Source of the DNA: Streptomyces griseus
GTDB lineage: Bacteria; Actinomycetota; Actinomycetes; Streptomycetales; Streptomycetaceae
DNA: 64,000 nucleotides
Reading direction: 5' to 3'
NCBI RefSeq assembly: GCF_900460065.1
Contig: NZ_UAVD01000029.1
Location: 558,001 to 622,000, forward strand
Positions 49,774-62,706 of this stretch are shown in pieces; position 1 is the stretch's first letter, and each line of letters opens with the position of its first letter. The translations under genes and the position numbers were made by a program. Under the pieces are notes generated by a model that saw only the letters and a list, made by a program, of their open reading frames with translations, was not told the origin of the DNA and made no database searches.

Positions 49774-51453
<1,680 letters not shown>

Positions 51454-51522: not shown

Positions 51523-52002
51523 TCAGTGACCGGGCAGAACGCACACCGCGTCGATCCCCAGCACATGGTTGAGCCGCCCGAACGCCAGCCACGAGCCGAT
51601 GCTCATCGTCAGCTCCACGATCTCCGCCTGGCTGTAGTGCGCGGTCATCCGCTGCCAGAAGGCGTCGTCCAGACCGTGGTGGTCGAGCGTGTACCGCTCG
51701 GCGTACTCCGCCGCCAGCCGGGTCCGCTCGTCGAAGGCGTCGGTCGTACGCCACTCGGTCACCGCCCCGGCGAACTCCTCCTCGACCTTCGCCCCGTCCC
51801 GCTCGGTCCGCCAGTCCAGGCAGAACAGGCACCCGTTGATCTGCGCGACCCGCAGCCTGGCCGCCTCGAACTCCCGCAGCCCCAGCGTCGTGTGCTCGTA
51901 CACGGACATCGAGAAGGTGGCGGCGGCCATGCCGATGCCGGGGACCATCTCCCCCCACACGTAACCGATGGGCTCCTGACCCTCGGGAATGTCGATGATC
52001 AT
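51523..52002 (-). CDS. Carboxymuconolactone decarboxylase/alkylhydroperoxidase (AhpD)-like protein
   Basis: A 159-residue all-alpha protein with the CMD/AhpD active-site motif CLFC (in INGCLFCLDWR) and a downstream histidine (RLNHVLGID). Many family members use the two cysteines as peroxidase redox pair. AAGGAG lies about 7 nt before ATG 52002. The start overlaps the stop of the upstream dehydrogenase (ATGA), so the two act together. The pair lies next to cholesterol oxidase on the opposite strand; a functional link is possible but unproven. Confidence 0.88.
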   Translation of the reverse strand: MIIDIPEGQEPIGYVWGEMVPGIGMAAATFSMSVYEHTTLGLREFEAARLRVAQINGCLFCLDWRTERDGAKVEEEFAGAVTEWRTTDAFDERTRLAAEYAERYTLDHHGLDDAFWQRMTAHYSQAEIVELTMSIGSWLAFGRLNHVLGIDAVCVLPGH

Positions 52003-53078
52003 GCAGGTCTCCTTCCCAGCCTGCCGACCGCAGGCCGCAGGGGAACGTCGAGTGCGTCGTACAGGCCCGGTTCCGCGTCCACCAGCCAGTCGATGGCGGA
52101 GACGAGCCGCCCGACCGCCGTGGCGTTCCCGCCCGCCGACCGGTTCTTGTCCTCGTCGGAAGCCTCCACCGTCACCTCGATACGGGGACGGCCCTCGATC
52201 ACCACCCGGTGCGCGCCCACACCGTCGGGCGGGGACGGCCAGTCCGGGGCGCACGAGGGGTGGATCCGGGTGATGTGCTCGATGACGATGCGCGGCACGC
52301 CGCCCACGATGCCCTGTACCTCGAAGCGCACGGCCCCCTGCGTGCCCGCCGCGAACTCGCCCATCGTGCGGGTGCCCACCGTGGACTCCAGCGCCCGACG
52401 GTCCATGGTCTCGCGGATCTCGTCCACCTCGACGTCCAGCGCCCGCGCCATCAGGCGTATCTGACCGCCCCAGACCATCGTCGGAACGCTCGGTGCCAGC
52501 ATCAGCGGCTCGTACTCCATCGGGTGCCCCATACCGATCAGATGGCGCACCGACTCCTCCTGCTCGTACGTGGAGTAGTCGAAGATCTCCTGGCAGCGGA
52601 TCACGTCCACCTCGGTGCCGAGACCGCTGACCAGCAGGGGCAGCACGTCGTTGCCCCAGCCCGGGTCGACGCCGGAGACGAACAGCGAGCCGCCGCCCTC
52701 GGCGACGGCGGCCAGGACCGGGTCCCGGAGCTCCGCCGGGGCGTTGCGCTGGTCGTAGAGCGGATAGAGGGAGGGCGTGACGACCACCGCGCCGGACCGG
52801 ATCGCCCGGCCGATGTCGGCCAGCGCGTCATCGGGACGTATGTCGCCGGACGCCGCGTAGACCACCGCCCGGGGGCGGGCCGCCAGAGCGGCCGCGACGT
52901 CGTCGGTGGCCGCGACCCCGAGCATGCGCCCGACCCCGCCGAGCTCGCCCGCGTCGCGGCCGACCTTGGCGGGATCGTGCACGAGGACGGCGGCGAGTGT
53001 CAGTGCCGGATGGGCCTCGACGGCGCGGATCGCCGCGCGGCCGACGTTGCCGGTACCCCAGACAACCGTGGGAATCAT
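51999..53078 (-). CDS. NAD(P)-dependent dehydrogenase, DapB-like (amine dehydrogenase family)
   Basis: A 359-residue Rossmann-fold protein. The nucleotide motif is VWGTGNVGRAAIRAVE at residues 5-20. The central part (VSGVDPGWGNDVLPLLVSGL, EIFDYSTYEQEESVRHLIG) fits the dihydrodipicolinate-reductase-like/2,4-diaminopentanoate dehydrogenase group often seen in actinobacterial lipid catabolic loci. TACCCT lies 6 nt before ATG 53078 with no ribosome site, so expression is probably leaderless. It is first in the two-gene operon with the CMD protein. Confidence 0.83.
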   Translation of the reverse strand: MIPTVVWGTGNVGRAAIRAVEAHPALTLAAVLVHDPAKVGRDAGELGGVGRMLGVAATDDVAAALAARPRAVVYAASGDIRPDDALADIGRAIRSGAVVVTPSLYPLYDQRNAPAELRDPVLAAVAEGGGSLFVSGVDPGWGNDVLPLLVSGLGTEVDVIRCQEIFDYSTYEQEESVRHLIGMGHPMEYEPLMLAPSVPTMVWGGQIRLMARALDVEVDEIRETMDRRALESTVGTRTMGEFAAGTQGAVRFEVQGIVGGVPRIVIEHITRIHPSCAPDWPSPPDGVGAHRVVIEGRPRIEVTVEASDEDKNRSAGGNATAVGRLVSAIDWLVDAEPGLYDALDVPLRPAVGRLGRRPA

Positions 53079-53196: not shown

Positions 53197-56148
53197 CTAC
53201 CGCTTGGCGCGTGCGCCGTTCGGGGTGCCGGCGACCGTGAACTGCGAACCGGGCTCGATGAGTACGTGACCGTCGCGCGAGTTCGTGATCGTCACGTTGG
53301 TGAGCGTCGCGTTGCCGCGCGCGCCGCCCATCGCGAGGATGCCGGACCCGTTGTTGGACTTGTCGATCCGGACGTTCTCGATCTTGACGTCCTGCATCAC
53401 GCCGCCACCCGTCTTGAACTGGATGCCGTCATAGGTGGAGTCGATGATGTCCGTGTCGCGGATCGTGACTCCGGGGATCGGCAGGTTCTGCGGGAAGAGG
53501 GTGATCGCACCGAACTCCTGGTCCTCGTTCCAGAACGCTCCGCCGGTGCGGTACAGGCCGTTGTTGGCGATCAGCGTCTGCCCGGAGAAGGGCAGCGGGT
53601 CGTGGTCGGTCGCCAGCATGATGGCCGGGTAGTTCATCGTGTCGGAGATCAGGTTGTTCTCGATCTTGTTGCCGTAGCCTCCGTAGATCGCGATGCCGTT
53701 GGCACGCCACGGGAGCTGGATGGTGTTGTTGCGGAAGCTGTTGTCGTGGCCGATGTCGACGGACTGGTTCTTGACGTACTTGCTGGACCAGACGGCCAGG
53801 GCGTCATCGCCGGTGTTGCGGAACGACGAGTTGTAGACCGTGGAGTTGCGGGTGCCGTTGGCGAAGTTGATGCCGTCGGCGTACGTGTTGCGGATCCGCA
53901 TCCCGGTGAACTCGACGCCGTCGCCCGGGTTCCACAGCTCCTGGATGTTGTCGAAGTCGCGGCCGGCCCAGACACCCACGTTGGCGTGCTCGATCCAGAC
54001 GTTGCTGATCTTCGTGTCCTTGCCGAACCGGCCGTTCAGCGCGACGCCGCCCTCGTGGTTGCCGTCGCCGCCGCGAATGGTGCCGGAACCGAAGATCGCG
54101 ATGTCGGAGATTTGCGTGTTCTCGTCGATATCGAAACCGAAGTTGCCCTCGTGCGGGTGGTTGATGCCGCCCGCCTCGTGCGGCGGGGTGAGGGTGTAGA
54201 GCTGGGAGTGCCACATGCCCGCGCCCCGGATGGTCACATCACGGATGCCGACCTGGTTCCACTGGCCCCGGTCGAGCGGGTCGTCGGTGAGGATCTTCTG
54301 CTCCTGGCGCCACTGGCCTGCCGGGATCCACACACAGTCGATCTGGCCGGTCTGGTTCGCCGTGACCGCCCGCTGGATCGCGGCCGTGTCGTCGATCCCG
54401 TCGTTCGCCACCGCGCCGTACGTCGTGATGGACACACAGCCCGAGGGCTGGGACGAGGGCGCCGCCACCTGCTCCAGGTCGATCAGGTCGATGATGTAGA
54501 AGGAGGCGTTGTCGCTCGCGTCGCGCTGGAGCCGGAACTTCGTGCCCGCCGGATAGGTCCGCGTGAGCAGGGCGTGCGACTCGTCGAACAGGCGCCGCGC
54601 GTCCCCGCCGGGGGTGTTGGTGAGTCCTTCGGGGCTGTCGGTGTTCCCGTACAGCCAGCTGTGCTTGGAGGAGAGGTCGAGCTTGCGGACGAACTGGCCG
54701 TCGGCGTACAGGCTGATGGTCGCCTCACGGCCGCCACCGCCCGGCGCGTCGGGGATGGAGTTGCGCACGACGACCGAGTTCGACGGGGCGGTCGAGGTGA
54801 ACTCCACGTACTCGCCGGTCGCGTTGAGCCGGACCGACTCGCGGCCGGAGGACTCGGTGGCGAAGTTGGTGTGCCCGAAGGTGCGCTCGGCGTCCGACTT
54901 CAGCAGCGTGCCCCGGTAGGCGGCGTTCTCCGCCTCCAGCTCGGTGTACGGAACGGCCGCGCCGCGTCCGACCACGATGGAGCGGGCGAAGGTGTTGTTG
55001 GTCTCGTTGGTCTCGGCGACCTGGTTCGTCGCGTCCGCGGTGGCGGTCAGCGTCGCGCCGCCGCTCGCCGCCGTCCAGCTGCCGCTGACCGCGACGTTCG
55101 CGGTGGCGCCCGCCGCGATGGCCGGTGTGGTGCCGTTGAGCGTCGTGGAACCGACGGTCAGGCGGGTGACCGTGCCCGCGCTCACCGCGCTGGTGCCGCG
55201 GTTGTGGACCGCCACCGTGAAGGTGACCGCCGCCCCGACGGCCGGGTTGGCCGGGCTGGAGGAGATGGAGCGGACCTCCAGGTCGGGGCCGGGGCTCTGC
55301 CCGACCACCAGCGGGGAGGCGGTGGTGCGGCTGTTGTTGGTGTTGTCGGACTCGACGACCGTGTCCGTCGGGTCCACCAGCGCCGAGACGGTGTACGAGC
55401 CCTGCGGCCGCTTGCCGACCCCGACCGAGACGGGGGCGGAGGCGCCCGCGACGAGCGGGCCGACCGGCGCGCTGCCGACGACCACGCCGCCCAGGCTCAC
55501 GTTGACGGTGGTCGCGGGGGAGGCGGCCGAACCGGCGTTGCGGACGGTCCCCCGGACGGTGATCTCGTCCGTCTCGGAGGGGGATGTGGGGCTCCAGGAC
55601 AGGGCGCTCACGGTCAGGTCCGGGTTGGGGGCGGCGGTCCCCAGGACCTGGACCTCGGCGATCTGCCCGCCGGGCGCCCCGGTGTTGGCGAAGAACTTGA
55701 GCTGGAGGTCGGCGACCCGGCCGTCCACCGGGATCGTCACCGTGTTCTGGTTGCCCGAAGGGCTGAACGCGTAGCCGGCCCGGGCCCGGAGCGAGGTGAA
55801 CGCGGTGCCGTTCTGGCTCCGGCCGAGCACCTGGATGTCCTGGGTCCGGCCGCCCCAGATCGGGTCGGGGTTGAGCTTGATCACCACGGACTCCAGGTCC
55901 GCGTCGGCGCCGAGCTTCACCGTGAGGTCGGCCGGCAGTCCGTTCGACTCCCAGTAGCTGTCGACCTTGCCGTCGTTGGCGTTGGCGGCCGGGTAGCCGC
56001 CGTGCGACCCGCTGGCGGCCACGGGCTTGCCCCGGGCCAGATCGGTGGCCTCAGCCGCGCTCGCGGCGACGGGCAGCAGTCCGACCGAGACCAGTCCGGC
56101 TATCAGCAGCCCGGTGATCGACTGTCCGGTGCGTCGTTTCCATCTCAT
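53197..56148 (-). CDS. Secreted multidomain beta-helix glycosidase, probable GH87 alpha-1,3-glucanase
   Basis: A 983-residue exported protein. Order: Sec signal (1-32), discoidin/F5-8C-type carbohydrate-binding domain (about 35-170), two CARDB domains (about 176-283 and 290-395), a CBM35/CBM6-like domain (about 400-560, YTELEAENAAYRGTLL) and a right-handed beta-helix (565-983) beginning GAVANDGIDDTAAIQRAV. The helix shows NTYADGINFANGTRNSTVYN (D758) and RNTGDDALAVW (D780, D781), resembling catalytic aspartates of GH87 mutanase. ATG 56148 follows GAGGAC closely; a GTG at 56166 is an alternative. It probably degrades fungal-type alpha-1,3-glucan. Confidence 0.8.
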   Translation of the reverse strand: MRWKRRTGQSITGLLIAGLVSVGLLPVAASAAEATDLARGKPVAASGSHGGYPAANANDGKVDSYWESNGLPADLTVKLGADADLESVVIKLNPDPIWGGRTQDIQVLGRSQNGTAFTSLRARAGYAFSPSGNQNTVTIPVDGRVADLQLKFFANTGAPGGQIAEVQVLGTAAPNPDLTVSALSWSPTSPSETDEITVRGTVRNAGSAASPATTVNVSLGGVVVGSAPVGPLVAGASAPVSVGVGKRPQGSYTVSALVDPTDTVVESDNTNNSRTTASPLVVGQSPGPDLEVRSISSSPANPAVGAAVTFTVAVHNRGTSAVSAGTVTRLTVGSTTLNGTTPAIAAGATANVAVSGSWTAASGGATLTATADATNQVAETNETNNTFARSIVVGRGAAVPYTELEAENAAYRGTLLKSDAERTFGHTNFATESSGRESVRLNATGEYVEFTSTAPSNSVVVRNSIPDAPGGGGREATISLYADGQFVRKLDLSSKHSWLYGNTDSPEGLTNTPGGDARRLFDESHALLTRTYPAGTKFRLQRDASDNASFYIIDLIDLEQVAAPSSQPSGCVSITTYGAVANDGIDDTAAIQRAVTANQTGQIDCVWIPAGQWRQEQKILTDDPLDRGQWNQVGIRDVTIRGAGMWHSQLYTLTPPHEAGGINHPHEGNFGFDIDENTQISDIAIFGSGTIRGGDGNHEGGVALNGRFGKDTKISNVWIEHANVGVWAGRDFDNIQELWNPGDGVEFTGMRIRNTYADGINFANGTRNSTVYNSSFRNTGDDALAVWSSKYVKNQSVDIGHDNSFRNNTIQLPWRANGIAIYGGYGNKIENNLISDTMNYPAIMLATDHDPLPFSGQTLIANNGLYRTGGAFWNEDQEFGAITLFPQNLPIPGVTIRDTDIIDSTYDGIQFKTGGGVMQDVKIENVRIDKSNNGSGILAMGGARGNATLTNVTITNSRDGHVLIEPGSQFTVAGTPNGARAKR

Positions 56149-56312
56149 GATGTCCTCTACTTCCACAATATTTGAGCCAGCAAGTCAATCTTTTGCGGTG
56201 AGAGGTTCATAGATTTCTGCGCTGTTTCTGATTTGTCAACGGTCCTCGCATGGTCATGTCATTCCGGTGCCTTCACTGACCGTGCGTCAGATCAACTGGC
56301 GGGAGGGCTCGT

Positions 56313-57206
56313 TCAGGCTCCGCCGACACCCCGGGCCAGCAGCAGCGCCAGATCCACCGCGGCCACGGCCACCGCTCCGGCCAGGGCGGCCTTGCGCCGG
56401 CGGCGGCCGAGGGCCGGTCCCGCGAGCGACGCCGCACCGGCCAGGACGAGGGCAGCGGCGCCCGCCGCACCCACCGGTCCCGGCGGCCCGAACGCCAGCA
56501 CCGCCGTGGCACCGAGCAGCGGAACCGGCAGCAGCAGCCGGGTGCCCCGGTCGCCCAGCCGGTGCGGGAGGCCCCGGATCCCGGCCGCCCGGTCCGCCGC
56601 GATGTCCGGGAGCGTGTCGGCCAGATGTGCCGCGAACCCGAGCAGCGCCCCGGCCGTCACCGTCCACCACCGGGGCCACGGTCCGCCGGGCACGGAGAGG
56701 GCGACGGTGGCGGGCAGGGCGCCGAATCCGGCCACGTACGGGAGCCAGGACAGAGCGGTCGCCTTGAGCCGCAGGTTGTAGAGCCAGGCCGCGGCGACCG
56801 CGGCCAGGTGCACCGTGCCCGCGAGGACCCCGCAGGCCAGCGAGAGCGGTACGCACAGGGCGAACGCGACCCCCGCCGCCACCCACACCGCACGCGCTCC
56901 GACCGTGCCGTCGGCCGCCGGCTTCCCCCGGCGGCCGGCGTCGGCGTCACGCCGCGCGTCGTACGCGTCGTTGCACCAGCCCACCGAGAGCTGGCCGGTC
57001 AGCACCGCCGCCGTGACCAGCGCGGAGCGAGGGCCGCCGAGTCCGGAGCCGAGAGCGAGGGCGCACGCGAGGGCGGTCACCGCGAGCGCCGGTCCCGGGT
57101 GGCACGCGAGCGCGAGCCCCACGACGCGGCTTCCCCGCCCCGCGCGGGCCTCTCCCGCGCCGGCCGTCCCCGCACCGGCCGGGCTCACCCTGTCCACGGC
57201 GTCCAT
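56313..57206 (-). CDS. UbiA-family prenyltransferase of a type III PKS locus
   Basis: A 297-residue membrane prenyltransferase with about eight helices. The first aspartate motif is NDAYDARRDAD (about 79-89) and the second is DTLPDIAADRA (about 195-205), both binding prenyl diphosphate through magnesium. TACGAT lies 6 nt before ATG 57206, with no ribosome site, implying leaderless expression. It is divergent from the type III PKS operon across 118 bp. It likely prenylates a phenolic product of that operon, though a housekeeping quinone or lipid role cannot be excluded. Confidence 0.85.
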   Translation of the reverse strand: MDAVDRVSPAGAGTAGAGEARAGRGSRVVGLALACHPGPALAVTALACALALGSGLGGPRSALVTAAVLTGQLSVGWCNDAYDARRDADAGRRGKPAADGTVGARAVWVAAGVAFALCVPLSLACGVLAGTVHLAAVAAAWLYNLRLKATALSWLPYVAGFGALPATVALSVPGGPWPRWWTVTAGALLGFAAHLADTLPDIAADRAAGIRGLPHRLGDRGTRLLLPVPLLGATAVLAFGPPGPVGAAGAAALVLAGAASLAGPALGRRRRKAALAGAVAVAAVDLALLLARGVGGA

Positions 57207-57298
57207 CGGGCGATCGTAGGGGCCTGGCGCCCCGTCAATGCGGAGACCGGGCGGGTCTTTTGCGCCGTTCCCCCGCCACGTGCGGGCAGGATGGGGCC

Positions 57299-57328
57299 AT
57301 GACGCCACCGAAGCAGGAGGCAGAATGA
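57299..57328 (+). CDS. Possible 9-codon leader ORF before the type III PKS
   Basis: ATG at 57299 opens MTPPKQEAE and stops at TGA 57326-57328, overlapping the PKS start as ATGA. CAGGAT sits 6 nt before it, as in leaderless genes, and its body contains the PKS ribosome site. If translated it would couple PKS initiation to leader translation. This is a weak prediction. Confidence 0.3.
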   Translation: MTPPKQEAE

Positions 57329-58377
57329 CCCGCATCGCCGCGGTCCACGGGGCTCTGCCGCCCCACCGCCACACCCAGCGCGAGGTCACCGACCTGGTGG
57401 CCCGCACCTGCCTGCCGCCCGGAGCCGACCGCCGTGTCCTGGACCGGCTCCACGAGAACGCCCGGGTCCGCGCCCGGCACACCGTGCTGCCCCTGGACGG
57501 CTACCGCGCACTCGACGGCTTCGGCGCGACCAACGACGTGTTCATCCGCTCCGCCGTGGACCTCGGCGCCCGGGCCGTACGCGGCGCGCTGCGATCGGCG
57601 GGGCTGCGGCCCACCGATGTGGACCTGCTGATGTTCACCTCGGTCACCGGCATCGCCGCCCCCTCCGTCGACGCCCGGCTCGTGACCCGCCTCGGCATGC
57701 GCTCGGACGTCAAGCGGCTGCCCGTCTTCGGGCTGGGCTGCGTCGCCGGAGCGGCCGGGACGGCCCGGCTGCACGACTACCTCCTCGGCCGCCCCGACGA
57801 CGTGGCCGTGCTCCTGTCGGTCGAGCTCTGCTCCCTCACCTTCCAGCGCCACGACGCCTCGCCCGCCAATCTCGTGGCGACCGCGCTGTTCGGCGACGGA
57901 GCGGCCGCCCTGGTCGCCCTCGGCGGGCGGCGGGCCGTCTCCGGCCCCGAGATCGTGGCCACCCGCAGCCGGATGTACCCGGACACCGAGCACGTCATGG
58001 GGTGGGACGTCGGCTCCACCGGGTTCCGCGTCGTCCTCGATCCGGCCGTGCCCGACGTCGTGCGCCAGTACCTCGCCGACGACGTACGGGAGTTCCTCGA
58101 CGAGCACGGACTCAAGCCGAAGGACGTCGCCCACTGGGTGTGCCACCCGGGCGGCCCCAAGGTCCTGGAGGCCGTCACCGAGGTCCTCGATCTGCCCGAC
58201 GGCGCGCTCGACGTCACCTGGCGCTCGCTTGCCGACGTCGGCAACCTGTCCTCGTCCTCGGTCCTGCACGTCCTGCGGGACACCATCGAGCAGCGCCGCC
58301 CCGAGCCCGGCACCCCCGGACTGCTGCTGGCCATGGGCCCGGGATTCTGCTGCGAACTGGTGCTGCTGCGCTGGTAG
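57325..58377 (+). CDS. srsA: Type III polyketide synthase (alkylresorcinol/alkylpyrone-type)
   Basis: A 350-residue ketosynthase-like homodimeric enzyme extending an acyl-CoA starter with malonyl units. The catalytic triad is C139 (VFGLGCVAGAAG), H274 (WVCHPGGP) and N307 (NLSSSSVLHVL). It is unlike RppA (tetrahydroxynaphthalene synthase) and closer in motifs to SrsA-like enzymes that make phenolic lipids. GGAGG is 4 nt before ATG 57325. The gene order PKS, ICMT-like methyltransferase, FAD hydroxylase equals the srsABC operon described for S. griseus. The symbol is by this analogy. Confidence 0.85.
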   Translation: MTRIAAVHGALPPHRHTQREVTDLVARTCLPPGADRRVLDRLHENARVRARHTVLPLDGYRALDGFGATNDVFIRSAVDLGARAVRGALRSAGLRPTDVDLLMFTSVTGIAAPSVDARLVTRLGMRSDVKRLPVFGLGCVAGAAGTARLHDYLLGRPDDVAVLLSVELCSLTFQRHDASPANLVATALFGDGAAALVALGGRRAVSGPEIVATRSRMYPDTEHVMGWDVGSTGFRVVLDPAVPDVVRQYLADDVREFLDEHGLKPKDVAHWVCHPGGPKVLEAVTEVLDLPDGALDVTWRSLADVGNLSSSSVLHVLRDTIEQRRPEPGTPGLLLAMGPGFCCELVLLRW

Positions 58378-58390
58378 GAAGGAGAGACCC

Positions 58391-58924
58391 ATGACCTCGA
58401 CCTGGTACACCCTCCTGGTGCTGGCCGTCGCGGCCGAGCGCCTCGCCGAACTCGTCGTGGCCCGCCGCAACACCCGCTGGAGCCTCGCCCGGGGCGGCGT
58501 CGAATCGGGCCGCGGGCACTATCCGGCGATGGTCGCGCTCCACACCGGGCTCCTGCTCGGCTGCCTGGCGGAGGTCCGGTTCGCCGAACGGCCCTTCCCG
58601 GCCGTGCTCGGCTGGACGATGGCCGGCGTCGTCGTCGCCTCGCAGGCGCTGCGCTGGTGGTGCATCCGCACGCTCGGCCCCCGCTGGAACACCCGGGTCA
58701 TCGTCGTCCCCGGCCTGCCCCGGGTCACCGGCGGCCCCTACCGGTGGCTGAGCCACCCCAACTACGTCGCCGTCGCCGCCGAAGGCATCGCGCTGCCCCT
58801 GGTCCACGGGGCCTGGGTGACCGCCCTCGTCTTCACCGCCCTCAACGCCGCGCTCATGGTGGTGCGGATCCGCTGCGAGGACGGGGCGCTCGCCCGCCTC
58901 CCGGCCGCGGACGCGCCCGCGTGA
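58391..58924 (+). CDS. srsB: Isoprenylcysteine carboxylmethyltransferase-like membrane methyltransferase
   Basis: A 177-residue polytopic membrane protein of the ICMT family with about four or five helices. The SAM-binding segment is visible near the C-terminus (VTGGPYRWLSHPNYVAVAAE). In srs operons the corresponding enzyme methylates the resorcinol hydroxyl. GGAGA lies 7 nt before ATG 58391, 13 bp after the PKS stop. The stop overlaps the start of the next gene (GTGA). Confidence 0.85.
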   Translation: MTSTWYTLLVLAVAAERLAELVVARRNTRWSLARGGVESGRGHYPAMVALHTGLLLGCLAEVRFAERPFPAVLGWTMAGVVVASQALRWWCIRTLGPRWNTRVIVVPGLPRVTGGPYRWLSHPNYVAVAAEGIALPLVHGAWVTALVFTALNAALMVVRIRCEDGALARLPAADAPA

Positions 58925-59937
58925 TCGACGTCCTGGTCGTCGGCGGCGGACCGGCCGGACTGGCCGCCGCGATCCGCGCCGCCGCGACAGGCCTGGAAGC
59001 GGTGGTGGTCGAGCCGCGCACCAGCCCCGTGGACAAGGCCTGCGGCGAGGGCATCATGCCCGGCGGTGTCGCGGCCCTGCGTGACCTCGGCGTGCGGGTG
59101 AGGGGCCGTGAACTGCGCGGCATCCGCTACACCGACGGCCGGCGCAGCGCGGAGGCGGCCTTCCGGGGCGACCCCGGCGCGGGCGTCCGCCGCACCGAAC
59201 TCCACACCGCCCTGCACGAGCGGGCCGCCGCCCTCGGCGTCCGCGTCGTCGCCGCGAAGGCGGGGGAGGTCCGGCAGGACGAGCACACCGTCACCGCCGC
59301 CGGACTCACCGCGCGCTGGCTCGTCGCCGCCGACGGGCTGCACTCGCCGCTGCGCCGCTCCCTGGGCCTCGACCGGCCCGTCGCCGGACCCGGGCGCTAC
59401 GGCCTGCGCCGCCACTACCCGCTCGCCCCCTGGACGGACCACGTCGAGGTGCACTGGTCCCGGCACGGCGAGGCGTACGTGACCCCGGTCGGCGAGCACC
59501 TGGTGGGGGTGGCCGTCCTGAGCCGGGACCGCCACCCCTACGACCGGCATCTGGCCGCCTTCCCCGCCCTCGCGGCCCGGCTCGCGGACAGCGCGGGCGC
59601 CACCCCCGTGCGCGGGGCCGGGCCGCTGCGGCAGCGCGCGCGGGGCCTGAGGGCCGGGCGCGTCCTCCTGGCCGGCGACGCCGCGGGCTACGTGGACGCC
59701 CTGACCGGGGAGGGCATCGCCCTCGCCGTCGCCACCGCGACGGCCGCCGTCGACTGCCTGAGGGCCGGGCGGCCCGAGGACTACCCCCGGCGGTGGACCC
59801 GGGCCACCCGGCGCCACCGGCTGCTCACCGCCGCCCTGCTGGGCGCCGCGGGCCACCCGTCGTCCCGGCGGCTGATCGTCTCCGCCGCCCACCGGGCGCC
59901 CGTCCTCTTCCGCACCGCGGTCCACGCGCTCCAGTGA
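58921..59937 (+). CDS. srsC: FAD-dependent hydroxylase (geranylgeranyl-reductase-like family)
   Basis: A 338-residue flavoprotein with the dinucleotide motif VVGGGPAGLAAAIRAAATG (7-25), the KACGEGIMPGG segment, the DG motif VAADGLHSPLRR and the second FAD motif VLLAGDAAGYVDALTGEGI. In the srs pathway the flavoprotein hydroxylates the aromatic ring, giving a quinone-forming phenol; that role is inferred here. GTG at 58921 overlaps the methyltransferase stop. Confidence 0.86.
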   Translation: MIDVLVVGGGPAGLAAAIRAAATGLEAVVVEPRTSPVDKACGEGIMPGGVAALRDLGVRVRGRELRGIRYTDGRRSAEAAFRGDPGAGVRRTELHTALHERAAALGVRVVAAKAGEVRQDEHTVTAAGLTARWLVAADGLHSPLRRSLGLDRPVAGPGRYGLRRHYPLAPWTDHVEVHWSRHGEAYVTPVGEHLVGVAVLSRDRHPYDRHLAAFPALAARLADSAGATPVRGAGPLRQRARGLRAGRVLLAGDAAGYVDALTGEGIALAVATATAAVDCLRAGRPEDYPRRWTRATRRHRLLTAALLGAAGHPSSRRLIVSAAHRAPVLFRTAVHALQ

Positions 59938-59996
59938 ATCGGGGCGCATCCGGGCCGCCGATCGTCCGAATGGCGGGGCTCCTGGTTCCGGCATAA

Positions 59997-60034
59997 CGTC
60001 GGTCGGGTGAGCGTCCGCGTTCATCCGACCGACG
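59997..60034. promoter_or_regulatory. 14-bp inverted repeat between the srs-like operon and MFS gene
   Basis: CGTCGGTCGGGTGA (59997-60010) and TCATCCGACCGACG (60021-60034) pair at 13 of 14 positions across a 10-bp spacer. It is 60 bp after the hydroxylase stop and 58 bp before the exporter ATG. It could be a terminator or a TetR-type operator of the exporter. Confidence 0.55.
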
Positions 60035-60092
60035 CAGAGACCGGCTGCCCCCACCGGGCGCACTGCCCTCGGCACGAGAGACGACTTCCACT

Positions 60093-61754
60093 ATGACGGG
60101 CTCCCGAGCGACCCCCGCGGACACGGCGAAGTCAACCGACCGGCACCACGGCGGACTGGCCCTCCTGGTCATCGCCTCGTGCCAGCTGATGGTGGTGCTC
60201 GACGTCACCATCGTCAACATCGCCCTTCCGCACATGCAGAAGGACCTGGGGTTCTCCACCGAGAACCTGTCCTGGGTCGTCAACGCGTACACCCTGACGT
60301 TCGGCGGCCTGCTGCTGCTCGGCGGACGCCTCGGCGACATCCTCGGCCGCCGCCGGGTCTTCATCTTCGGTGTGCTCCTCTTCGTCTTCGCCTCGCTGCT
60401 CGGCGGACTCTCCCAGGAGGGCTGGCAACTGCTGGCCGCCCGCTCCCTCCAGGGCGTCGGCGGCGCCATCGCCTCGCCGACCGCGCTGTCGCTGATCACC
60501 ACCACCTTCCGCGAGGGCCCCGAACGCAACCGCGCGTTCGGGGTGTTCGCGGCCGTCTCGGCGGGCGGCAGCGCGATCGGGCTGCTGGCCGGCGGCGTAC
60601 TGGTGGAGTGGCTCGACTGGCGCTGGGTGCTGTTCGTCAACGTTCCCATCGGTCTGCTGATCGCCCTCGCGGCCCCTCGCTACATCCCCGAGTCCGAACG
60701 CCGCCCCGGCCACTTCGACGTGGCGGGCGCCCTCACCTCCACGGCCGGCATGGTGCTGCTGGTCTACGGTTTCATCCGCGCTTCCGAGGAGGGGTGGACC
60801 GACCCGGTCACCCTCGGATCGTTCGGCGCCGCCGTGGTGCTCCTCGGCGTGTTCATCGCCATCGAGAGCCGCTCCAGACAGCCCATCACCCCGCTGGCGC
60901 TGTTCCGCGACCGCAACCGGGCCGGCACCTACACGATCATGCTGTGCCTCTCCGCGGCCATCTTCGGGATGTTCTTCTTCCTGACCCTCTTCGTCCAGGA
61001 CGTCCTCGACTTCAGCCCGCTGCGGGCCGGGCTCGCCTTCCTGCCGGTGAGCGTCGTCATCGCGATCAGCGCGGGCATGGCATCCCAACTGCTGCCGCGG
61101 TGGGGGCCCAAACCCTTCATGGTGGTGGGCGCGCTCCTGGCCGCCGCCGGGCTGGGCTGGCTCACGCTGACCGACGTCCACAGCTCCTACCTGGGCTCGA
61201 TCCTCGGCCCGATGCTCGTGTTCGGCTTCGGCATGGGCATGCAGTTCGTGTCGCTGACCCTGATGGCGGTCTCGGGCATCGCCCCGAAGGAGGCCGGCGC
61301 CGCCTCCGGCACCCTCAACGCCTCCCAGCAGGTCGGCGGGTCCCTGGGGCTGTCGATCCTGGTCACGACGTTCGGCACGGCCAGCCGCAACGAGGCGACC
61401 GACCAGGCCCCGCGGTTCCTCCGGGAGGCCACCCCCGCCCAGCTCCAGGAGTTCCGCACGACCGGACAGCTCCCGGGCCCCTGGGGCGACCAGGTCCTCA
61501 CCTCGGGCGTCTCCAGCGCCTTCGTCGTGGCCGCCTGCTTCGCGGTGCTCGCCGCCCTGGTCGCCCTGTTCGTCATCCAGGTCAGGCCCGCCGACCTGGC
61601 CCGCCTCCAGGGCGGCGCGACACCGCTCGCCGGGGCGGGGACGGACGACCCCGCACCGGACGGGACCCGGTCCGGCGGCACGGACGCCGCACGGCCCGAC
61701 ACCGACGAACCGGGGCCCGGCCCGGACGCCGAGCGCCCCGCGAAGGAGAACTGA
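60093..61754 (+). CDS. MFS multidrug exporter (DHA2, 14-TM)
   Basis: A 553-residue proton-coupled drug exporter of the EmrB/QacA group with about 14 membrane helices. Family motifs include LDVTIVNIALPHMQKDLGFS, GGRLGDILGRRRVF and the antiporter motif region GVFAAVSAGGSAIGLLAGGVLVE. The C-terminal 55 residues are hydrophilic and Asp/Pro-rich. The neighbouring VOC gene begins 3 bp after the stop, so exporter and VOC protein are made together, a layout seen in resistance cassettes. It may export the phenolic product made next door. Confidence 0.92.
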   Translation: MTGSRATPADTAKSTDRHHGGLALLVIASCQLMVVLDVTIVNIALPHMQKDLGFSTENLSWVVNAYTLTFGGLLLLGGRLGDILGRRRVFIFGVLLFVFASLLGGLSQEGWQLLAARSLQGVGGAIASPTALSLITTTFREGPERNRAFGVFAAVSAGGSAIGLLAGGVLVEWLDWRWVLFVNVPIGLLIALAAPRYIPESERRPGHFDVAGALTSTAGMVLLVYGFIRASEEGWTDPVTLGSFGAAVVLLGVFIAIESRSRQPITPLALFRDRNRAGTYTIMLCLSAAIFGMFFFLTLFVQDVLDFSPLRAGLAFLPVSVVIAISAGMASQLLPRWGPKPFMVVGALLAAAGLGWLTLTDVHSSYLGSILGPMLVFGFGMGMQFVSLTLMAVSGIAPKEAGAASGTLNASQQVGGSLGLSILVTTFGTASRNEATDQAPRFLREATPAQLQEFRTTGQLPGPWGDQVLTSGVSSAFVVAACFAVLAALVALFVIQVRPADLARLQGGATPLAGAGTDDPAPDGTRSGGTDAARPDTDEPGPGPDAERPAKEN

Positions 61755-61757
61755 CCC

Positions 61758-62213
61758 ATGGACTGGACCCTCGAAGTGATCGTGCTGCCCGTGACCGACG
61801 TCGACCGGGCCCGGGACTTCTACCGGGACAAGCTCGGCTTCCACGTGGACATCGACGGCGAGGTGATGCCGGGCGCCCGTGTGGTCCAGCTGACGCCCCC
61901 CGGATCGGGCTGTTCGATCGCCCTCACCGAAGGCCTGCCCAACCCGACCGGGACCCCGCGGCCCGGCACGTACCACGGTCTCCAGCTCTGCGTCACCGAC
62001 ATCGACGCCGCACACGCCGAGCTCGTCGGCCGGGGGGTCGAGGTCTCCGAGCCGCAGCGGTTCACCCCCGAGGACGGGGCGACCTTCATGTACTTCACCG
62101 ACCCCGACGGCAACGGCTGGGCGGTGCAGGAGTACCGCCGCCGGAGGGCCGAACCCCTGCACAAGGTCCTCGCCGACCTGGCCGCGAGCGACACGGGGGA
62201 CACGGTGGGGTGA
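61758..62213 (+). CDS. VOC (glyoxalase/bleomycin-resistance) superfamily protein
   Basis: A 151-residue protein with two beta-alpha-beta-beta-beta modules (VIVLPVTDVDRARDFYRDKL, LQLCVTDIDAAHAELVGRGV). The terminal DPDGNGWAVQEYR carries the metal-binding-type glutamate. Members are dioxygenases, glyoxalases or drug-binding resistance proteins. It is operonic with the MFS exporter (3 bp apart). Confidence 0.9.
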   Translation: MDWTLEVIVLPVTDVDRARDFYRDKLGFHVDIDGEVMPGARVVQLTPPGSGCSIALTEGLPNPTGTPRPGTYHGLQLCVTDIDAAHAELVGRGVEVSEPQRFTPEDGATFMYFTDPDGNGWAVQEYRRRRAEPLHKVLADLAASDTGDTVG

Positions 62214-62307: not shown

Positions 62308-62706
62308 ATGGGCGCCAACGCAGACATGGTGGCCTTCGTCCTGGCGCGGCTCGCCGACGAGGAACACGTCGCACTGGCCGCCGGCGGGGACCGATGGCGG
62401 TGCCCGGCCGATGTGCCGGGCGAGGTCCACGACCGCACCGGCGGGGTGGCGTTCACGGTGCGCGGCCGGGGCTTCGACGAGCACATCGCGCTCCAGGACC
62501 CCGCGCGGACCCTGGAGCGCATCGAGACGAACCGGGTGATGCTCGGCGAGTACGTCGAGGTGGCCGACCTGGACACCGACCGCCCGGCCGAGGACTTCCG
62601 CTCCGGCCGTGCGGTGGGCCTCGGCTTCGCCGTACGCCAACTGGCCGCCGAGTACGCGGGACACCCCGACTACCAGGCCCGCTGGCTGCCCCGGTTCATC
62701 CAGTAG
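62308..62706 (+). CDS. DUF6221 family protein
   Basis: A 132-residue soluble protein with the layout of DUF6221: an N-terminal helix MVAFVLARLADEEHVALAA, a central HIALQDPARTLERIETNRVM motif and an aromatic/acidic end (AAEYAGHPDYQARWLPRFIQ). The family is abundant in Streptomyces, often near integrative elements or phage-like genes, and its function is unknown. GGGAG is about 10 nt before ATG 62308. Confidence 0.8.
   Translation: MGANADMVAFVLARLADEEHVALAAGGDRWRCPADVPGEVHDRTGGVAFTVRGRGFDEHIALQDPARTLERIETNRVMLGEYVEVADLDTDRPAEDFRSGRAVGLGFAVRQLAAEYAGHPDYQARWLPRFIQ

Follow-up and report, generated by a model that had tools for sequence, protein, structure and literature searches.

A UbiA-family prenyltransferase gene beside the srsABC-like type III polyketide synthase operon of Streptomyces points to a prenylated phenolic lipid

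The gene set and its conservation

We analysed a 64,000-nucleotide stretch of the Streptomyces griseus genome (contig NZ_UAVD01000029.1, positions 558,001 to 622,000; "the window" below), in which the interval 56313-62213 carries an operon resembling srsABC of S. griseus and, divergent from it, a gene for a UbiA-family prenyltransferase. A sequence-only reading had placed six genes here, namely the srsABC-like set, UbiA, a DHA2 exporter and a VOC protein. All six are present, open and located as first described, each with a profile hit to its assigned family; the interval ends at the UbiA stop (56313) on one side and at the VOC stop (62213) on the other.

57206-56313, minus strand: UbiA-family prenyltransferase, 297 amino acids, ATG at 57206; PF01040, 79 bits (cut-off 34.2)
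57325-58377, plus strand: type III polyketide synthase (PKS) of the SrsA/Pks11 kind, 350 amino acids; Chal_sti_synt_N/C, 67.2/65.6 bits (cut-off 27)
58391-58924, plus strand: ICMT-type methyltransferase, SrsB-like; PF04140, 96.7 bits (cut-off 24)
58921-59937, plus strand: flavin adenine dinucleotide (FAD) enzyme, probable hydroxylase, SrsC-like, GTG start; FAD_binding_3 PF01494, 70.2 bits (cut-off 22)
60093-61754, plus strand: DHA2-type major facilitator superfamily (MFS) exporter; MFS_1, 203.2 bits; TIGR00711, 234 bits (cut-off 230.2)
61758-62213, plus strand: VOC-family protein; Glyoxalase/VOC PF00903, 61.2 bits
57218-57204, minus strand: TACGAT as -10 element, followed after six nt by the ATG of UbiA, whose transcript is predicted to be leaderless

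The UbiA start is best set at 57206, which leaves 118 bp between its ATG and the PKS start codon. The PKS and ICMT genes are 13 bp apart, the ICMT stop overlaps the GTG of the FAD gene by 4 nt, and the three follow the srsA-srsB-srsC order on one strand; a further 155 bp separate the FAD gene from the MFS gene, and 3 nt the MFS gene from the VOC gene. Two genes in the genome pass the type III PKS C-domain cut-off, the second matching the window PKS at 32%, and of its five UbiA-family genes the window's alone belongs to its own UbiA family at E <= 1e-10. By PKS identity the nearest of 77 named loci are those of Streptomyces sp. McG3 (97%) and S. anulatus (96%). Homologues of the PKS, ICMT and FAD genes lie on one strand in all 53 named Streptomyces loci, a count that takes in the record [Kitasatospora] papulosa and a partial FAD match in L047.

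Conservation of UbiA beside the PKS had been set beforehand as the test of a common pathway, and in Streptomyces it was borne out. Among 150 genomes of the genus, the matches listed, which reach down to about 3e-49, place the PKS in 69 (best identity 50% or more); 72 PKS places in these were entered (E up to 4.4e-69), while weaker rows, from PKSs of other kinds, and the second half of each of three split matches were left out. Of the 69 genomes, 63 carry UbiA no more than 10 kb from the PKS, divergent at 57 places (95-464 bp between the matches) and on the same strand at 6. In one further genome (G018) the two genes each lie at a contig end, and five (G089, G144, G086, G060 and G035) have the PKS without a UbiA match. 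UbiA occurs in 65 genomes, and only one of these (G037) lacks the PKS. Two of the five genomes without a match, G089 and G086, contribute stretches (L091 and L092) with PKS and methyltransferase but no nearby UbiA; a homologue of the FAD enzyme was not found in the L091 stretch either.

The named loci give the same picture: UbiA is present in 55/77 and in 50/53 of those from Streptomyces, and the three without it (L010, L056 and L082) begin no more than 250 bp from the edge of a contig. It is also found in both Nonomuraea loci, the Solihabitans locus and both Cellulomonas loci, and is missing from 19 further named loci, from Mycolicibacter, Alpinimonas, an Actinomycetales metagenome-assembled genome and bacteria of other phyla, one of which (L063) starts at a contig edge. 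Across a class-wide sample of 394 genomes the PKS was found in 118, entered as 120 places with further copies left out, and UbiA lies within 10 kb of it in at least 66 of the 118, in nine families. The families differ. In one (f19) the PKS is present in 13 of 22 genomes searched and has UbiA beside it in 13/13; in another (f4) this UbiA appears in 0/19 PKS genomes among the matches listed; in six genomes of a third (f9) UbiA either has no match or, the assemblies being fragmented, sits on another contig than the PKS; and in a fourth (f18) one genome, G254, has UbiA 0.76 Mb from the PKS set. We conclude that the grouping of UbiA, PKS, methyltransferase and FAD enzyme exceeds chance, a conclusion that does not extend to the exporter and VOC genes.

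The prenyltransferase, its start and the operon enzymes

Both aspartate motifs of the window protein, N79-D80-x2-D83-x3-D87 and D201-x3-D205, are invariant in 96 UbiA homologues (the window's included), as are H36, K95, Y143 and H194. By sequence, UbiA has hardly any solved relative: phmmer against the PDB returned nothing at E <= 1, and a UbiA profile gave one weak match, 6m31, at E 0.078. The fold comparison was decisive for the assignment. The AlphaFold model (pLDDT 88.3, pTM 0.85) matches best an archaeal digeranylgeranylglyceryl phosphate synthase; it aligns with 6m31 at Z 23.2 (root-mean-square deviation 4.2, 269 aligned) and with 4tq3, bound to geranyl diphosphate and Mg, at Z 21.1 (3.1, 250 aligned), and scores lower against soluble prenyl synthases (Z up to 15.4). 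The superfamily motifs NDxxDxxxD and DxxxD thus sit on what is predicted to be a UbiA fold. Because the aspartates are invariant and the model matches solved UbiA enzymes, a prenyl diphosphate is most likely its ligand; the identity of the donor and of the acceptor we infer.

The proposal that UbiA is leaderless and divergent holds up as a conserved pattern in sequence, from which a promoter of its own, divergent from the PKS operon, is predicted. In the window alone, TACGAT followed after 6 nt by ATG is within chance (0.29 matches expected, at least one in 26/100 shuffles). Among 78 loci scored as divergent, TANNNT stands 6 or 7 nt ahead of an RTG in the UbiA frame in 65, against a background of 82 in 29,952 RTG triplets (60 loci); the search was open to several starts per locus, and we estimate that chance would supply about one locus in a hundred. 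The 13 misses include five that are not clean divergent pairs (L041, L099, L102, L134 and L135). A looser count over 400 bp, in the window and 55 named loci, found TACGAT or TAGGAT at this place in 48/56. A consensus sigma-70 scan of the divergent region found no promoter-like site, so the -35 element is not of consensus type and conservation is limited to the geometry of -10 and start.

The best solved relative of the window PKS is Mycobacterium tuberculosis Pks11 (4jao, 430.7 bits). Cys139, His274 and Asn307 align with the catalytic positions, and we take their roles from general knowledge; a second Pks11 chain has Ser at the position aligned with the catalytic Cys. One paper, available in part, seems to tie a single Trp to resorcinol-forming enzymes (PMC5916927), and Trp227 of the window PKS would correspond to it if the positions match as we suppose. 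Pks11 carries the Trp227 motif too, yet its PDB depositors name it an alpha-pyrone enzyme. By homology, the window PKS would be of the alkylresorcinol kind.

For the methyltransferase no solved relative at E <= 0.01 was found in the PDB comparison. The FAD enzyme has weak PDB matches only (PyrE3 and a digeranylgeranylglycerophospholipid reductase), and among NCBIfam profiles it scores highest with that of the geranylgeranyl-reductase (GGR) superfamily, TIGR02032, at 117.7 bits and below the cut-off of 158.8. We considered that it might be a prenyl reductase and rejected this. Since its score is below the cut-off, and a separate FAD gene of GGR type occurs in 22 loci, it is better read as a probable hydroxylase, a label given by analogy with SrsC.

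This second FAD gene usually lies next to UbiA; it was seen first in five loci and then surveyed across 127 PKS loci (the 77 named and 50 picked mainly for nearby UbiA), of which 22 have it. Three of the GGR-type proteins score 164.7-175.7 bits to TIGR02032, as against 116-118 bits for three operon FAD enzymes; the gene was called by homology above 120 bits to one such protein, and 3/22 were scored against the profile. The loci are L054, L077, L094-L096, L111-L118, L120, L128, L136-L139, L141, L142 and L144. It was not seen in the DNA examined around the 53 named Streptomyces loci, nor beside UbiA in the window, and the three best other GGR homologues in the window's genome reach 34-36% identity. 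As no such reductase adjoins UbiA here, the prenyl tail may stay unreduced; the gene would predict reduced tails in its 22 loci and not in the window's relatives.

Exporter, VOC protein and other neighbours

The exporter and the VOC protein had been proposed as parts of the same system, and this part of the proposal did not stand. Beside the PKS and on its strand, an MFS gene scoring >900 bits is found in 21/77 named loci and a VOC gene in 19/77, all of them within L006-L026, close relatives of the window with a PKS identity of at least 91%; neither was found beside the PKS in the remaining named loci. A VOC match at E <= 1e-45 occurs in 59/150 Streptomyces genomes, beside the PKS in 7 and elsewhere in 52, as judged by comparing the two match lists by eye. 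Homologues of the window MFS, PKS and UbiA are all absent from five of these other VOC loci, of 12 kb each, and the genome holds 33 further homologues of the window MFS. We rejected both genes as pathway parts on these grounds: the MFS exporter is probably an independent unit found in near relatives of the window, and the VOC protein probably lies outside the pathway. That the pair serves export of, or protection from, the product in those relatives is quite improbable, and what favours it is their shared strand at these loci and the 155 bp that follow the FAD gene in the window.

Downstream of the VOC gene, a DUF6221 protein (62308-62706, plus strand, 121.4 bits) has homologues near the operon only in L006-L026 among the 77 named loci. 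On the other side UbiA adjoins a gene for a large protein (53197-56166, minus strand) with the alpha-1,3-glucanase catalytic domains CatAgl_D1/D2, two CARDB stretches and an F5/8-type domain; its homologue is near the operon in 12/77 named loci. Further out lie a gene pair at 51523-53078 (minus strand), for a carboxymuconolactone-decarboxylase-family protein and a dehydrogenase related to 2,4-diaminopentanoate dehydrogenase, and a gene at 49810-51453 (plus strand) that, from its translation, we take to encode a GMC-type, cholesterol-oxidase-like flavoenzyme with a twin-arginine-like leader.

In several loci of other families (L102, L151, L154, L157, L158, L162 and L164), a member of this UbiA family has a type III PKS of a second, distant kind in its neighbourhood. 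In 25 loci where UbiA lies away from the PKS studied here, 6 have this second kind nearby, the other 19 show no second type III PKS in the DNA examined, and a GGR-type gene (E <= 1e-20) was not seen in any of the 25. This is a hint that the UbiA family in question is associated more broadly with type III PKSs.

Described pathways and competing readings

The window holds the parts of an agq-type set: a PKS predicted to be of the alkylresorcinol kind, a methyltransferase and an FAD oxygenase, and a UbiA linked to the PKS. In the agq cluster, agqB is reportedly the methyltransferase and agqC the FAD enzyme, and to our knowledge the agq enzyme is the sole characterised prenyltransferase from such a set. 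The cluster, in Actinoplanes missouriensis, gives alkyl-O-dihydrogeranyl-methoxyhydroquinones (named so in the accessible part of PMC8698034): AgqA makes alkylresorcinols that are afterwards prenylated and hydroxylated (PMC10896814), and a passage citing Awakawa 2011 describes a UbiA-like prenyltransferase that O-prenylates the alkyl-methoxyhydroquinone (PMC3227686). From such citing passages, both systems combine a type III PKS with a UbiA-like O-prenyltransferase. They differ in that agqA-agqD, whose orthologues are reported from four Phytohabitans with no such product by liquid chromatography-mass spectrometry, look consecutive there by locus tags (PMC7692728, seen in part), whereas in the window the UbiA gene is transcribed away from that of the PKS. 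This UbiA, a putative counterpart of AgqD, has no prenyl reductase gene beside it. The GGR-type gene of other loci fits the dihydrogeranyl group in the agq product name.

The idea that this was a variant not yet described consequently falls away, as the kind of pathway, known since 2011 from agq, is already described. The available part of PMC8779670 likewise reports a UbiA-STS-ICMT-FAD neighbourhood in Gephyromycinifex aptenodytis, with the same four gene kinds consecutive by number; its authors, unlike us, tie the set to angucycline-type products, which we regard as unlikely for such a set. The loseolamycin locus of Micromonospora endolithica (PMC7587189, in its accessible part) also has UbiA and a methyltransferase near a resorcinol-forming type III PKS, but in the order UbiA - methyltransferase - acyl-CoA dehydrogenase - PKS; the loci with a second PKS kind perhaps resemble it.

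We suggest, with a probability of about 0.75 and from sequence comparison, that the window carries an agq-type set making a prenylated, methylated and hydroxylated phenolic lipid; the linkage of the genes, their correlated distances, the motifs and predicted fold of UbiA, the GGR-type gene of other loci and the agq precedent all favour the prenylated lipid that had been proposed. The PKS, as its relatives and residues suggest, would build an alkylresorcylic acid or alkylresorcinol by extending a fatty acyl-CoA; the ICMT-type enzyme would methylate this product and the FAD enzyme would hydroxylate the ring to a methoxyhydroquinone, by comparison with SrsB, SrsC and agq; and UbiA, presumably transcribed leaderless and divergently from the PKS operon, would, like the agq enzyme, attach a short prenyl chain to a hydroxyl of the ring, with C10 as the most likely length.

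Several observations weigh against this or limit its support. Outside Streptomyces, the UbiA family lies away from this PKS in 84 of 150 matches listed. No UbiA was seen in 26 of the 127 PKS loci when sought with the window protein at E <= 1e-8, a search that a distant UbiA could escape; 21 of the 26 are outside Streptomyces, and 22 remain once the four that start at a contig edge (L010, L056, L063 and L082) are excluded. UbiA, PKS and FAD enzyme show correlated pairwise distances (Pearson 0.90-0.93 over 95 loci and the window, 96 sets, loci whose hits were short, long or stop-bearing having been removed). Genes that share their inheritance should behave in this way, but such a correlation could stem from common descent of the genomes alone. 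The GGR-type gene accompanies UbiA in 22/22 loci and occurs in 0/26 without visible UbiA, a contrast that is suggestive and not clean because most loci that are not named were chosen for UbiA. The membrane phosphoribosyl-transferring UbiA relative 8j8j has the same fold (Z 17.5), so the fold by itself is no proof of prenyl transfer. Finally, the S. griseus srsABC lipids are described, in the part of PMC10896814 at hand, as alkylresorcinols and alkylquinones that are not prenylated.

These points bear on the simpler view that the window has a plain srsABC operon making unprenylated alkylresorcinols or alkylquinones, with UbiA a neighbour that serves another pathway. PKS sets without UbiA do occur, as in family f4, in G254 with its distant UbiA, and in 22/77 named loci (four of these through a contig end), and a paper on Marisediminicola antarctica reports srsABC without mention, in its accessible part, of a prenyltransferase (PMC6669644). 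We nevertheless consider this view unlikely, given that, of the 150 Streptomyces genomes, G037 and the contig-split G018 are the only ones in which UbiA (E <= 1e-10) was found elsewhere than beside the PKS, and that the GGR-type gene was found in UbiA-bearing loci only. A different question is what UbiA attaches. It might prenylate carbon, or use a longer donor (farnesyl, geranylgeranyl or polyprenyl diphosphate), and so give a quinone-like meroterpenoid in place of an O-geranyl ether. Aromatic prenyltransferases are introduced as formers of C-C bonds in an accessible passage of PMC3227686, the best structural match of the model is the archaeal digeranylgeranylglyceryl phosphate synthase (although a common fold tells little about the donor), and no prenyl-diphosphate synthase is among ten proteins scanned at 51.5-62.7 kb. 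Set against this, the agq enzyme O-prenylates and its product is dihydrogeranyl (PMC3227686, PMC8698034, as far as available), and we hold this alternative possible if rather doubtful. The agq-type reading, with a short O-linked prenyl group, accounts best for the four-gene set.

If so, the Streptomyces loci known as "alkylresorcinol" or srsABC are probably agq-like, and UbiA is apparently their overlooked fourth gene. The srs operon of S. coelicolor (sco7669-7671) shares with srsABC of S. griseus and with the window the succession PKS - methyltransferase - FAD enzyme within one genus. It was treated as three genes, with a final product not identified, and the main text of that paper has 0 occurrences of UbiA (PMC4573997, seen in part). 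The reverse complement of its test primer SCO7671TF encodes IGWCN, like a UbiA motif, and fits the window UbiA gene at 14/17 bases, so that UbiA is probably also present at the S. coelicolor srs locus. The S. coelicolor host M1317 is devoid of the three type III PKS loci of this species (PMC4573997). Our literature search turned up no paper that reports UbiA as a conserved member of the srs loci in Streptomyces, a weak negative with subscription literature mostly outside its reach. Agq-like clusters are listed for two Streptomyces strains in the accessible part of PMC7093587. Streptomyces sp. ADI96-02 is entered there as "Alkylresorcinol", despite the divergent UbiA in locus L025, which bears that strain's name; genome mining can thus label such loci plain "alkylresorcinol".

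We lean slightly towards the wider proposal that the srs pathway as described is unfinished: its genus-wide end product would be a prenylated alkyl-methoxyhydroquinone, made through a co-inherited UbiA expressed leaderless from the shared divergent region, and the alkylresorcinols and alkylquinones ascribed to srsABC would be intermediates, seen where UbiA was unexpressed or not included. Should UbiA indeed belong to the pathway, these widespread Streptomyces membrane lipids, linked to beta-lactam sensitivity in the available part of PMC10896814, would be prenylated.

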